A DNA stretch of 37,557 nt. It comes from a virus. Position numbers and translations under genes: made by a program. Below the pieces are notes generated by a model. It did not search any database and was not told the DNA's origin. It was given only the letters and a program-made list of their open reading frames with translations. Below are positions 26,567 to 37,557 of the stretch, piece by piece; the stretch's first letter is position 1; each line of letters opens with the position of its first letter. Where the stretch lies: positions 1-37,557 of the IMG/VR virus record IMGVR_UViG_3300027971_000110. One strand, written 5' to 3'.

Positions 26567-27442
26567 TCAATTATTAAATAAGTCTATATAATCCTTGTGA
26601 TTGCCCCAATACTTATGCGTTGCGTAAGTATTTTCCTTGTTATATATAGAGTTATGAGATGTGAAGTGATTGCCGTGATTAATATGGATAGCCTCGTTCT
26701 GACTAGCCCATTGGCTACGTTTTAGCTTATCTGTTTCTATATTGCCACAATTAACCTTCAAGGCATTAGGAAGTATGTTTAGGCAATGCTCAATGGCATC
26801 CTCTAGCCTCATAGTCATTTGATGGAAAGGTTCATCGTTTTGATTTCTATGCTGCCAACCATCTTTATTAATACCCCCATAGTTCATATTCGTTAAGACC
26901 TCACCTTTGGCAAAGTCAGGGTAGTCAAAGTAACCTTCAGGGTACATAACATCGTGTTCTAGGAATGAGACATATTCGTAGTCGCCCATCTCCCTAGCCA
27001 TAAATAGGCATTGCATAATCTGTAAGAGTTGGTTTAAATGGCTTTGTGACTTATACCAGCTAAAAACGCTTAGGAAGGGATTTAAGGGCATATCTTCCCA
27101 TAGGCAAGTGATTATGTCAGCCTTACCCTCAGAGGCGATTTTTATGGTGTCTAATGACTTATAAATGGCATTCCAAATACTATGTTGGTTATTGTTAGAA
27201 TAGAAGATGCCTAAACGCTTATTTCCTGTCTTTGGGATAGAAACTAGGCTACCTTCCTTATAATAGTCTAAATGAACCAAATCATCGTGCTCCCAACTAA
27301 GCTCTAGGCTTTTAACCTGGCCCACACTAGGATCGCCAATAATGTCGTTATTTACCCTTAGCATTAGCTTGTCAAACTTAACCCTTGTACTAACAATATC
27401 CGTACAATCCATTCCTCCATATTTAGCTAATATTATTCTCAT
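26567..27442 (-). CDS. Putative GT-A glycosyltransferase with N-terminal beta domain
   Basis: A 291-residue protein in two parts. Residues ~1-70 form a small beta domain with the pattern YGG..CTDIV, NNDIIGDPSVGQVKSLELSW and YKEGSLVSIP, recalling accessory domains fused to bacterial enzymes. Residues ~75-290 look like a GT-A glycosyltransferase: KRLGIFYSNNN, KADIITCLWEDMP, LLQIMQCLFMAREMGDYEYV and SFLEHDVMYPEGYF. EHDV (Glu162-Val165) stands where the metal/nucleotide-sugar DxD motif is expected, and several His follow near the end. It overlaps the next-upstream glycosyltransferase gene by 4 bases, inside the tail module. The donor and acceptor are unknown. Confidence 0.65.
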   Translation of the reverse strand: MRIILAKYGGMDCTDIVSTRVKFDKLMLRVNNDIIGDPSVGQVKSLELSWEHDDLVHLDYYKEGSLVSIPKTGNKRLGIFYSNNNQHSIWNAIYKSLDTIKIASEGKADIITCLWEDMPLNPFLSVFSWYKSQSHLNQLLQIMQCLFMAREMGDYEYVSFLEHDVMYPEGYFDYPDFAKGEVLTNMNYGGINKDGWQHRNQNDEPFHQMTMRLEDAIEHCLNILPNALKVNCGNIETDKLKRSQWASQNEAIHINHGNHFTSHNSIYNKENTYATHKYWGNHKDYIDLFNN

Positions 27443-28356
27443 AAGACTGTTTTAGTTTGTTGTATTAATTCCCAATATTTAGAACTAGCAAACTCCTTGT
27501 TTATGTTTATAGTTTCACCATAAGGCAACTTGTGTATGTAATCAGATTTAAAGAATAACCCACTAATAGCATCTATAGCTCCAGCATTGTGGTAGATGTT
27601 TAGCTTATCCCAAGACTCTGTCCTTGAAGTAGCCCAAGCAAATTCTAAATCAGGGTGGCATATTGTTTTCTTACCCATCTTCCAACCTCCCCATAATACG
27701 GCCCACATATCTGCACACCATATCTGAAGCTCGTGATAAACTGGATTATCAGCTTTTATACTTGCACTTAGTTCGGTTATCTCTTTATACAGCCTTTCAG
27801 AATCTCTTTCTACCTCATCCCAAAACTGCCATCCTATTCCTTTCATTAGGTATTGTGCACCTATTGAATTACGTTCATTCTCTTTGATTATCTCTTTGTC
27901 TATGCCTACTATCTCGCACATCTTATCTAAGACTTGTTCACCTTTGCTCATTATGTATTCATAGCCTATATAGAATCTAGTATCTGAACCATACCATTTG
28001 TCATCGTATAGAAATTTATACCATTCTACAGGCTTAGTAAATGCTATATCACAATCGTGATAAAAAATAGCATCTTGTTCTAGCTCAGGGAATTTCTTAA
28101 AGTGTTGCTTAAGGATGTTAGGCCTAATAGATGAAACATAGTTTTTAGTTTCTCTAAGGTCATCATAAAAGAAAAATCTAGCTGCATAATTGTTAGCTAG
28201 TTTAGACCATTCTATTGGTACGCTCCCATCTTTCCAACATACTATGTCTATGTTGTTAGGGTTAATACCCATTGTACTAAAGTTGTTAATCATTACCTCT
28301 ACTTGCCACGCATAGTAAAGCGTTGCAGGTTGAGCACAGACAAATCTTATTGTCAT
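27439..28356 (-). CDS. Putative GT-A glycosyltransferase (DxD)
   Basis: A 305-residue protein with a GT-A-like core: IRFVCAQPATLYYAWQVEVM, NNIDIVCWKDG, SIRPNILKQHFKKFPELEQD and AIFYHDCDIAFTKP, where DCD (Asp101-Asp103) is a classic metal-binding DxD. Further on come SIGAQYLMKGIGWQFWDEVE, WCADMWAVLWGGWK and YHNAG (a late His, often the third metal ligand). It should transfer a sugar from a nucleotide donor. It lies directly after the Thr/Ser-rich tail protein (12-base gap) and overlaps the second glycosyltransferase gene by 4 bases, so glycosylation of that tail protein is the natural guess. It is preceded by the leader AAAACCAAAACCA. Confidence 0.75.
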   Translation of the reverse strand: MTIRFVCAQPATLYYAWQVEVMINNFSTMGINPNNIDIVCWKDGSVPIEWSKLANNYAARFFFYDDLRETKNYVSSIRPNILKQHFKKFPELEQDAIFYHDCDIAFTKPVEWYKFLYDDKWYGSDTRFYIGYEYIMSKGEQVLDKMCEIVGIDKEIIKENERNSIGAQYLMKGIGWQFWDEVERDSERLYKEITELSASIKADNPVYHELQIWCADMWAVLWGGWKMGKKTICHPDLEFAWATSRTESWDKLNIYHNAGAIDAISGLFFKSDYIHKLPYGETININKEFASSKYWELIQQTKTVL

Positions 28357-28368
28357 TGGTTTTGGTTT

Positions 28369-30339
28369 TTATCTTAAGTCACCGCAGTACCCATATACTT
28401 GATATAGATGTGCTACAACTACTGTTTGTGTTGCCGAAGTTCTTGATTTTGGTAATGCTCCTGCTCCTGTATTTACATCGTCATATGCAGTACCATTATC
28501 ATTAGAAACTATTTGTCCTCTTTGTGTTGAATTAGCTCTTGCTGTTTGAGTTATTACACAATAAAATGTATCACCTGGATTCATTGTTATTGCAACTGAA
28601 GCTCCATCAAAATTTAAAGTAGTATTTAAACTTCCGTTTCTATATATTGCTAAAGTACCAGTATTGCTAGGATCTAAAGTTAAATAGAACTGAGCATCTG
28701 GAGTACCTATTGTTGTAGTAGTCGTTGTCGTAGTTGTTGTCGTAGTTGTACAAGTAGGAGTAACTGATAAAGCTAATTTGGTTCCGTTGCTATCTTTTAT
28801 AACTGCCCATAGTTGACCTGATACTGCAAATGATTGAGCACCATAAACATTTGAAGTTCCACTTGTATAATTAGTAGTTGTATAAGCATCAGAAGCATAA
28901 TTAAATAATGCATTGCCATAAGAATAACCTCCACTTCCACCAGCAAAAGAGTTGATTGTAACTACTGCATCAGTTCCACTACAAGTATAACTAATGTTAA
29001 ATGACAATGGTGCTAAAGTAGTTGTAGTGGTCGTAGTAGTCGTAGCAGGACATCCTGTAAGTCCTGTAGTAACAATAGACAAATGAGCACCACCAGGATC
29101 AGTTGTTACTTCACTTGTAATTCTAAAAGTTTGCCCTGTAGAAGTTACTCTTTCATTAACTGCGAAATCACCATAAAGATAATTTGTAGATGTAGTAGTT
29201 GCTCCTGTTCCACAATTATATAAGTTATACCACGCAGCTTGTCTAGTTGTGGTAGAAGTAGTCGTAGTAGTAGCACAAGCAGGTGTAACAGAATGAGCCT
29301 TTCTATTTGTAGGGTTTGCTGCATCTCTAACAGCTACCCAATGAATAGTGTCATCTTGATTATAATAAATTTTAGAAGTACCAGCAGTCCAAGCTGTTGC
29401 TGCTAATGCTGCTGACTGAGAAGAGAATACTGCATCTGTATATTCATAGGTTCCACTACCACCAGTATATGCGTTAGATGTTAAATAAGCTGTTCCACCT
29501 GAGCAAGTATAAGTTAATGTAAAATCTACTGGAGGTATAGTAGTAGAAGTTGTGGTTGTAGTAGTCGTAGCTGGGCAACCTGTTAATCCAGTTGTTGCAA
29601 TAGATAATAATGCACCTCCTGGATTAGTATAATAAATAGAATCAATTCTAAATGTCTGTCCTGTAGATGTAACCCTTTCGTTAACCGAAAAAGAACCATT
29701 AGGATAATTAGTAGAAGTGACTGTTACACCAGTAGCGCAATTAAATAAAGCATACCATACAGGAGCCTGTGTCGTTGTTGTGGTAGTAGAAGTCGTTGTA
29801 GATGTTGTTGTACTTGTACTTGTAGTAGAAGTACTCGTAGAAGTTGTAGTGCTCGTAGATGTTGTGCTAGTGCTTGTAGTACTTGTTGTAGTACTTGTAG
29901 TGCTAGTTGTAGTAGTTGGGGTAGCATCTGTATAGTATATTCCAGTACCACTAAAGGATACTGAATAAGGGCTTACACTATTCATACTGCCACTAATAGA
30001 ATAGTTTGAGATAAAGCAATACCCACTTATATACTTAAATACACCCTTATTATCTATAGCGAATCTAATTAAGAATAATGTTCTATTCTTTTGCTCATTA
30101 GCTATGTCATCTACTCCATAGCCGCTTAAAGAAGTTAAGCCATCGCAAGTAACATTCCAATTAGATAAGTCTATCGTAGGAACCTTAAAATAGGCATTAG
30201 TTGGACTAGCCAACTCAACCATATCTGTACTAGAGGAAAATGAGCAACTTGTAGAACAAGCAAATGGGGTTTCAGTTGCAGGAATAGTAGAAGTATCTAT
30301 TTTATATAATATAATATTTTCTCCTAATATTGCTCCCAT
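28369..30339 (-). CDS. Tail decoration protein with tube-like domain and mucin-like Thr/Ser linkers
   Basis: A ~656-residue modular protein. Residues 1-~137 form a tail-tube-like domain (CSFSSSTDMVELASP, WNVTCDGLTSLSGYG, SPYSVSFSGTGIYY), paralogous to the neighbour at 30352. Residues ~141-190 are almost only Thr and Ser. Two kinds of Cys-containing module then alternate, separated by Thr-rich linkers: A1 (~193-255), B1 (~270-354), A2 (~369-430), B2 (~444-530); A copies share NERVTSTGQTFRI and TTGLTGCPA, B copies share YTCSG and GGSG.Y. A different C-terminal domain (~545-656) ends GYCGDLR. It is probably displayed on the tail tip and, with two glycosyltransferase genes directly downstream, may be O-glycosylated. 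Confidence 0.8.
   Translation of the reverse strand: MGAILGENIILYKIDTSTIPATETPFACSTSCSFSSSTDMVELASPTNAYFKVPTIDLSNWNVTCDGLTSLSGYGVDDIANEQKNRTLFLIRFAIDNKGVFKYISGYCFISNYSISGSMNSVSPYSVSFSGTGIYYTDATPTTTTSTTSTTTSTTSTSTTSTSTTTSTSTSTTSTSTTTSTTTSTTTTTTQAPVWYALFNCATGVTVTSTNYPNGSFSVNERVTSTGQTFRIDSIYYTNPGGALLSIATTGLTGCPATTTTTTTSTTIPPVDFTLTYTCSGGTAYLTSNAYTGGSGTYEYTDAVFSSQSAALAATAWTAGTSKIYYNQDDTIHWVAVRDAANPTNRKAHSVTPACATTTTTSTTTRQAAWYNLYNCGTGATTTSTNYLYGDFAVNERVTSTGQTFRITSEVTTDPGGAHLSIVTTGLTGCPATTTTTTTTTLAPLSFNISYTCSGTDAVVTINSFAGGSGGYSYGNALFNYASDAYTTTNYTSGTSNVYGAQSFAVSGQLWAVIKDSNGTKLALSVTPTCTTTTTTTTTTTTTIGTPDAQFYLTLDPSNTGTLAIYRNGSLNTTLNFDGASVAITMNPGDTFYCVITQTARANSTQRGQIVSNDNGTAYDDVNTGAGALPKSRTSATQTVVVAHLYQVYGYCGDLR
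29770..29919 (-). repeat. Low-complexity ACN/TCN tract encoding ~50 Thr/Ser
   Basis: About 50 consecutive codons encode almost only Thr and Ser with mixed third bases. Shorter Thr-only tracts lie at about 29533-29571, 29245-29274, 29014-29046 and 28714-28749. Varied synonymous codons suggest selection for the residues rather than a recent nucleotide repeat expansion. Confidence 0.85.
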
Positions 30340-35871: not shown

Positions 35872-36324
35872 TTAGTTGGTAGCGATAGTTAATACTCCTG
35901 TTCCTTTGAAAGATACTGAGTAAGTAACTGGATTCTCCATATCAGCAGTCATATCTACACTCTCAATAAATGCTGAACCTGAATAAATCACATCACCTGT
36001 AACTGGAGTTACACCATCTACTGTAGAGTTATTAACTGTAGTAAATTTAACTGTAACAGCAGCTCTTGCTATTGCTAAAGCGTTTAATTCAGCTGTGCTA
36101 ATATAAGTAGCAACCGAACCAGGTACTACTGTAGCTAAACCATCTGTTGTTAAAGACCAAGACCTTTGACCACCAATCTCATCAGCCCATCCTAAACTTT
36201 GTTTAGTAGAAGCATCTGGAGTATCGATAGCTAAACTTAATGAACAAGAAGTAGCATATCCTATTACTTCTGTCCCAATTAGAACTACTAATGAAGTTCC
36301 GTTAAATACACCTGTTGTTGCCAT
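35872..36324 (-). CDS. Major tail tube protein
   Basis: A 150-residue protein of the tail tube (TP901-1-like) family: FNGTSLVVLIGTEVIGYATS, CSLSLAIDTPDASTKQSLGW, GGQRSWSLTTDGLATVVPGS and TADMENPVTYSVSFKGTGVL. 'T.C.LSL..DT.D.ST' and 'W....DGL' followed by 'YS.SF.GTG.L' are typical of tubes in this group. It lies between the tail terminator and the tail chaperone. Two downstream tail-tip proteins carry the same domain. Confidence 0.9.
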   Translation of the reverse strand: MATTGVFNGTSLVVLIGTEVIGYATSCSLSLAIDTPDASTKQSLGWADEIGGQRSWSLTTDGLATVVPGSVATYISTAELNALAIARAAVTVKFTTVNNSTVDGVTPVTGDVIYSGSAFIESVDMTADMENPVTYSVSFKGTGVLTIATN

Positions 36325-37232: not shown

Positions 37233-37552
37233 TACTTAAGAGTTGAACAACCGATTAAATAATATTGGTTTAAATCTCCTTCGTTTATAATGGAGTTAAT
37301 TAGATAAGTTCTTGACTTCCAAGTTATTACAAGAGCCTGAGTAAATGTCTTGCCTGTTGTATATCTAATCCTAAAGGTAATTGCATCACTTAAGCTGTCT
37401 CTACTAGTTATATTATTCTTAGCATCGCTATTAGAGACTATTTCAGCCCAGCAAACATAATAAGATACTAAAGTGTTCACAAAGCCACCAGCACTATCAG
37501 AAACGCTTGTTTTGGTGTTAAAGGTTATTCTATTTCTAAGTTGTCCAATCAT
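37232..37552 (-). CDS. Head-closure protein (SPP1 gp16-like head-tail joining)
   Basis: A 106-residue small beta-barrel protein: MIGQLRNRITFNTKTSVSDS, AGGFVNTLVSYYVCWAEIVS, AITFRIRYTTGKTFTQALVI and TWKSRTYLINSIINEGD. 'G.L..RI.......' followed by 'W A.I', 'FRIRY' and 'Y.I..I' is the head-tail joining family pattern (Phage_H_T_join). It plugs the connector until the tail attaches. Its first 41 codons are repeated at the left edge because the map is circular; in the circle its start overlaps the connector stop by 1 base. Confidence 0.9.
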   Translation of the reverse strand: MIGQLRNRITFNTKTSVSDSAGGFVNTLVSYYVCWAEIVSNSDAKNNITSRDSLSDAITFRIRYTTGKTFTQALVITWKSRTYLINSIINEGDLNQYYLIGCSTLK

Positions 37553-37557
37553 TAGAT
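37428..37557. repeat. Right copy of 130-bp terminal repeat (circular overlap)
   Basis: This matches bases 1-130 except at 37431. Removing one copy gives a circle of 37,427 bp in which the connector gene (125-670) is directly followed by the head-closure gene. Confidence 0.95.

Follow-up and report, generated by a model that had tools for sequence, protein, structure and literature searches.

The 37,557-base virus record IMGVR_UViG_3300027971_000110 of IMG/VR (the window, by which we mean this whole stretch of DNA) carries three consecutive minus-strand genes that we interpret, with a probability of about 0.78, as a phage-encoded module for mucin-type glycosylation of the virion. A protein with dense Thr/Ser tracts (the predicted acceptor) is followed by two predicted glycosyltransferases, GT1 and GT2 (Table 1). 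Between the end of the acceptor gene and the start of GT1 lie 12 bases, and the GT1 and GT2 genes share 4 bases (ATGA). An earlier note, made from the letters of this DNA, had placed the three genes, the 4-base overlap, and the motifs DCD (residues 101–103 of the 305-residue protein) and EHDV (residues 162–165 of the 291-residue protein) at exactly the positions found here. The interpretation draws on predicted folds, invariant residues, gene order, and the way in which GT1 and the tracts are present or missing together, from which we infer catalytic activity and a Thr/Ser acceptor. The module proposed in that note was supported as a whole, except that GT2 is not part of its minimal form, which consists of GT1 and a poly-Thr tail.

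GT1 matches phrog_4417 ("prophage pi2 protein 34"), which is without function in PHROGs and whose name gave a single text match in the literature searched. phrog_4417 was found in 74 of 50,697 phage records, among them phages of lactobacilli, enterococci, staphylococci, lactococci, and Chryseobacterium; at least 346 stretches of IMG/VR also carry it. At 55 non-redundant loci, a run of eight or more Thr/Ser residues was encoded by the gene upstream of GT1 in 34 cases and by the downstream gene in none. Such runs occurred at 0–12% of loci at most other positions around GT1 and at 19% at position −2. The proteins encoded immediately before GT1 were of several kinds: capsid and tail proteins, tail-tube paralogues, and some that matched nothing.

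Among relatives of one major tail protein of an Enterococcus prophage (phiFL1A type), a poly-Thr tail was present in 4/4 GT1-positive and 0/18 GT1-negative cases (Fisher 1.4e-4), and in 3/3 and 0/17, respectively, after 95% de-duplication (8.8e-4). At the four GT1-positive loci, tails such as TTTTTTKPTTTTTTTQA terminate both the tail and head proteins. On the tail-protein tree, the combined state of GT1 and tail changed at least four times, two of these changes being forced by strongly supported branches. In the bIL285-type tail protein, the poly-Thr tail was likewise confined to GT1-positive cases (11/11 versus 0/34; 1/1 versus 0/14 after de-duplication). The C-terminal tail of the bIL285 major tail protein reads ...KTTTTTTTTTRHD, and GT1 of this type lies ca. 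2 kb from the tail gene, beside the head gene; in prophage bIL285 of L. lactis IL1403 it is orf45. In the non-adjacent cases (bIL285 type, Latilactobacillus), the tail was present only alongside GT1. Thus, relatives carry GT1 together with Thr-rich proteins, with coupled gain and loss, and the acceptor link, which the earlier note had drawn from position alone, is now backed by non-adjacent families in which the tail occurs only with GT1.

Of 395 Lactobacillales genomes sampled without bias, 13 contained GT1, and all 13 encoded a virion-type protein with a poly-Thr C-terminal tail within a few kb; most of these were recognisable capsid and tail proteins. In the reverse direction, 120 viral-contig stretches were chosen only for 12 consecutive Thr codons, and 12 of them carried GT1, usually adjacent to the tract; the rate in phage records is ca. 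0.15%, a rough comparison only, since the collections differ. For Bacteroidota-type contigs in which no tract protein adjoins GT1, a whole-contig codon-pattern control was unsuitable because AC-rich repeats also match the reversed pattern, and the regions were therefore read directly. In each of the ten regions examined, tract proteins were encoded at other sites of the contig. Across proteins and hosts, and whether or not the two are adjacent, the tract comes and goes with the enzyme, and GT1 therefore most likely glycosylates the Thr/Ser tracts.

The same coupling bears on two other explanations. It is unlikely that another enzyme, of the host or the phage, glycosylates the tracts while GT1 acts elsewhere on the same virion proteins or later in the pathway. 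Other glycosyltransferase families do adjoin some poly-Thr genes, and the order of the enzymes may differ from the one proposed here; however, GT1 is the common factor, and it is the sole recognisable glycosyltransferase near the tails in Bacillota phages, as judged from annotation and the GT1 profile. We consider it improbable that GT1 and GT2 modify a host surface glycan for receptor masking or seroconversion, with the Thr tracts being mere flexible linkers. Both proteins resemble polysaccharide-acting enzymes (WbbM, LgtC, and TarP), and phage glycosyltransferases that alter the host serotype are known, according to passages of PMC12619734 and the work cited there. Against this, phages that are unrelated to one another have GT1 in their late structural operon, next to the genes for major capsid or tail proteins, and no membrane-anchor or flippase gene was seen adjoining it. 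Nor does modification of a host glycan predict poly-Thr tails that come and go with GT1 among close relatives.

Several results weigh against glycosylation of the tracts by GT1. GT1 is absent from most poly-Thr contigs, indicating that such tracts also serve other purposes or that other enzymes act on them. Among the 16 GT1 contigs searched that lack a neighbouring tract protein, four (one of 321 kb and three shorter) have no run of eight ACN/TCN codons, the search covering Thr codons and, of the Ser codons, TCN only; these four are the chief exceptions. Some loci in the counts are closely related to one another. No sequence profile searched gives either GT1 or GT2 the label of glycosyltransferase, and the order and role proposed for GT2 are guesswork. 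An extension to other glycosyltransferase families beside poly-Thr genes was also tried and failed: five Glycos_transf_2 genes and one N-acetylglucosamine (GlcNAc) transferase gene were found beside 60 such genes compared to ca. 2/60 among distant genes, which was not significant.

In some loci without GT1, a family-2 glycosyltransferase is encoded directly downstream of the poly-Thr gene (L237:4243-5067, L240:3895-4731, and L307:11612-12436). It is perhaps a non-homologous replacement of GT1, the excess over the control not being significant. In a lactobacillus prophage (L423:8001-9600), the Thr-tail region of the capsid gene is out of frame, and the adjacent GT1 gene is split into two open reading frames; the two partners may have decayed together, or the sequence may contain errors.

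The earlier note had seen GT-A-like features in both proteins, and structure prediction bore this out, giving a GT-A fold at high confidence for each. The AlphaFold2 model of GT1, built on an alignment of 48 relatives, had a predicted local distance difference test (pLDDT) score of 97.2. It was closest to glycogenin (Z 14.7 over 209 residues, 3.2 Å) and LgtC (Z 13.9), and Foldseek matched it to WbbM (2.9e-7), UGGT, and ABO transferases. The phrog_4417 profile matches Bacillota members at 1e-119 to 1e-156. Across 54 sequences with identity down to ca. 27% (ca. 30% for the Bacillota-phage members), Asp-101, Asp-103, His-256, Gly-259, and Lys-270 are invariant. GT8 enzymes have a DxD motif and a C-terminal H-x-x-G...K pattern, which a metal-dependent GT8-like enzyme requires, and we take the invariant residues of GT1 to fit both. 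None of the 48 family members matched Pfam GT8 at E 0.1, and there was one weak match to Gly_transf_sug (0.014); the resemblance to GT8 is thus one of predicted fold only. Sequence searches of Pfam, NCBIfam, and the Protein Data Bank (PDB) gave GT1 no named family, and matches to Geminin and ENTH were rejected as chance-level.

GT1 could instead be a catalytically dead sugar-binding or chaperone-like protein that assists the folding or display of poly-Thr proteins. This would explain the co-occurrence equally well, and GT1 often adjoins its partner. We nevertheless regard it as improbable, since the DxD, His, Gly, and Lys residues are invariant in 54/54 sequences. In addition, the record of phage 1706 names orf11, orf12, and orf17 as structural but not orf14 (GT1), a weak sign that GT1 is a non-virion protein.

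The GT2 model, built on an alignment of 30 relatives, had a pLDDT of 91.1 and matched 6p61_C with Z 15.0 over residues 72–256. Foldseek returned BoGT6a (3.5e-6) and the capsid-glycosylation glycosyltransferase of PBCV-1 (3.3e-4). The profile of residues 1–72 matched the rhamnose-binding lectin 5h4s in the PDB at 5.8e-17 (a sum over three domains, the single domains giving 0.003–0.012) and CSL3 at 2.8e-11 summed (best domain 2.8e-4). Only one of 30 GT2 members matched Pfam SUEL_Lectin, at 0.15 and hence below threshold, and the domain is shorter than SUEL lectins and without the motif cysteine. Profile comparison revealed no kinship between GT1 and GT2. A plain search of phage records yielded no relatives of GT2; metagenomic contigs were therefore used. 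GT2 was seen only in those of the window's Bacteroidota-like kind, where 41 of 42 matches occurred with GT1, the remaining match being on a 5.8-kb contig. In larger Bacteroidota-type contigs (L038 to L067 type), a gene of ca. 170 codons separates GT1 from GT2, and no Thr/Ser-rich protein is adjacent. Judged by its sequence distribution, phrog_4417 is a widespread phage family with GT1 plus a poly-Thr tail as the apparent minimal form and GT2 as an add-on of Bacteroidota phages. Because the minimal form, with GT1 but not GT2, is the common one, GT1 is likely the initiator and GT2 a follow-up enzyme.

The predicted acceptor has five tracts of the density expected of a mucin-type acceptor. The earlier note had described a Thr/Ser-only linker of about 50 residues and four further tracts, and we found 49 consecutive Thr/Ser residues and four tracts. 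Beyond the long tract, repeated globular domains are arranged as A-B-A-B-C with Thr/Ser tracts in between. The Thr codons are mixed (ACA, ACT, ACG, and ACC), indicating that the tracts are a protein-level composition rather than a DNA microsatellite. No Thr/Ser run of six or more residues was found in any other open reading frame of the window. The phage encodes three proteins of the tail-tube fold, namely the major tail protein, the protein encoded directly upstream of the acceptor, and the acceptor itself, and the tail-tube domain suggests that the acceptor is displayed on the virion. The name "tail-tip protein" given to it in the earlier note was not established: its residues 1–207 match phrog_1407, making it the third tail-tube-fold paralogue, encoded after the tape-measure gene. 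A position at the tail tip is possible, and a role as a distal-tail or decoration protein is plausible because the gene sits after the tape-measure gene. The protein encoded upstream of it has 293 residues in the window and in L008 and ca. 135 in nearly all relatives; the ca. 160 extra N-terminal residues look like an inserted domain.

Table 1 Coordinates of the glycosylation module, related tail genes, and putative frameshift genes (T/S, Thr/Ser; aa, amino acids).
Feature	Position	Strand	Remarks
Predicted acceptor, 656 aa	28369..30339	minus	residues 1-138 tail-tube domain; phrog_1407 E 5.6e-15 over residues 1-207
Long T/S tract, aa 142-190	29770..29916	minus	49/49 T/S
T/S tract, aa 258-267	29539..29568	minus	
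T/S tract, aa 357-365	29245..29271	minus	
Thr tract, aa 433-441	29017..29043	minus	
Thr tract, aa 531-543	28711..28749	minus	
GT1, 305 aa, predicted GT-A glycosyltransferase (GT8-like fold)	27439..28356	minus	phrog_4417 E 1.6e-65, residues 4-302
GT1 DxD motif, D101-C-D103	28048..28056	minus	both Asp invariant in 54 sequences
GT2, 291 aa, predicted GT-A glycosyltransferase (aa 73-291) with small N-terminal beta domain	26567..27442	minus	
GT2 EHD motif, residues 162-164	26951..26959	minus	invariant in 30 sequences
GT2 N-terminal domain, aa 1-72	27227..27442	minus	SUEL/rhamnose-lectin-like signature ND-x-x-GDP-x-x-G-x-x-K-x-L-E
Second tail-tube-fold protein, 293 aa	30352..31233	minus	PF06199 2.9e-7, phrog_1407 1.2e-15; directly upstream of acceptor (synteny)
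Major tail (tube) protein, usual site before tape measure	35872..36324	minus	phrog_1407 2.7e-19; no T/S tract
Major tail genes with ACT CCC TAA	L311:4123-4936, L312:3508-4210, L006:4235-4937, L318:4164-4926		

The window has a siphovirus-like gene set, with recognisable genes for terminase, portal, protease, major head protein, connector, tail tube, tape measure, and a fibre with an S74 chaperone. At least 120 of its final bases (37430–37557) recur near the start (1–130), and the order of the head-connector genes runs across the ends; the record therefore looks like a complete, circularly mapped genome. The nearest named relative is an isolated Chryseobacterium phage, from which we assign the phage, provisionally, to a Bacteroidota-like host group. 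Glycosylation of phage DNA (hypermodification) by the two enzymes is highly improbable in this setting. Phage DNA glycosyltransferases are common, according to literature cited in passages of PMC12619734, but the genes lie within the tail operon, the coupling is to a protein feature, and the window genes examined include no recognisable pathway for modified bases.

We favour glycosylation of a virion protein. GT1 would be a metal-dependent GT-A enzyme drawing on a host nucleotide sugar; the identity of this sugar, the order of the enzymes, and the purpose of the coat are what we infer. It would O-glycosylate Thr and Ser in low-complexity tracts of virion proteins, here those of the 656-residue protein encoded just upstream in the same gene block. 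GT2, its translation coupled to that of GT1 at ATGA, would add a further sugar and so extend or complete the glycan, and its lectin-like N-terminal domain might steer it to the glycosylated tract, by analogy with polypeptide N-acetylgalactosamine (GalNAc) transferases. The product would be stiff, hydrated, glycan-coated linkers that keep the repeated globular domains off the tail.

The major tail protein gene of Staphylococcus sextaecvirus-type phages terminates in ...ACT ACT CCC TAA. In the +1 frame, the sequence beyond the stop encodes a mucin-like extension of ca. 60 residues that begins KPTTTTTT... and is annotated as a separate hypothetical protein. This extension occurs in phages SA2, PT1-4, RQ1, and the Arcanobacterium-labelled TPWB06, and L320 has a TAG variant with a different sequence after the stop. 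Judging from these reading frames, the site is a probable programmed +1 frameshift that would give some subunits a longer mucin tail.

We judge the odds to be slightly better than even for the following, wider proposal. phrog_4417 would initiate polypeptide O-glycosylation in a phage mucin system that is both widespread and portable: poly-Thr tails would be grafted onto any available virion protein (capsid, tail tube, or tail appendage), and GT1 would glycosylate them. Bacteroidota phages would have a lectin-guided second transferase, and in sextaecvirus-type phages some of the tail-tube subunits would gain an additional mucin tail through a +1 shifty stop (ACT CCC TAA). This gives a testable function to phrog_4417, conserved across Lactobacillus, Enterococcus, Staphylococcus, Lactococcus, and Bacteroidota phages, and a poly-Thr tail together with GT1 makes a simple sequence marker for phages predicted to be glycosylated. 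The documented cases of virion glycosylation come mainly from mycobacteriophages, in which it alters recognition by antibodies. If the proposal is true, this is a second, unrelated, and far wider glycosylation system with an encoded acceptor, and the surfaces, stability, adhesion, and immune recognition of phages would have to be read differently. The module could also yield a compact bacterial tool for O-Thr glycosylation. Nothing relevant on Thr-rich phage tails with glycosyltransferases was found in the literature searched; coverage of preprints and most subscription papers was incomplete, and a prior description is possible.

In virions of Che8, Corndog, and Myrna, phage glycosyltransferases glycosylate capsid and tail-tube subunits, reportedly at the C-termini, according to passages of PMC12363180, PMC12619734, and PMC11256854 that cite Freeman et al. 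2023. Compared with the GT1 and GT2 profiles with all filters off, Che8 gp108-110 showed no similarity, and homology was rejected. The Che8 enzyme genes lie far from the structural genes, whereas those of GT1 and GT2 lie directly behind the acceptor gene, and the capsid and tail proteins of Che8, unlike the acceptor of the window, lack Thr tracts, also at their ends. The design proposed here thus differs from that of mycobacteriophages, as the earlier note had anticipated. The GT8-type enzymes glycogenin and LgtC and the related retaining enzymes UGGT and ABO transferases share with GT1 the fold (Z 13–15), the position of DxD, and the C-terminal His-x-x-Gly...Lys; however, they have ca. 8–13% identity with GT1 and a different acceptor. 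The PBCV-1 capsid glycosyltransferase (2p6w, 2p73), a virus-encoded enzyme for the major capsid protein, and BoGT6a have the GT-A fold in common with GT2 at ca. 10% identity, and GT2 adds the EHD motif and the lectin-like N-terminal part. In mucin-type O-glycosylation of eukaryotes, polypeptide GalNAc-transferases with a lectin domain act on proline-, threonine-, and serine-rich (PTS) domains. The enzymes there are unrelated to those of the phage, whose predicted acceptor is a virion protein and involves no secretory pathway; the likeness, by analogy only, lies in a Thr/Ser-rich, Pro-spaced acceptor (TTTTTTxPTTTTTT) and in one partner with a lectin-like module.

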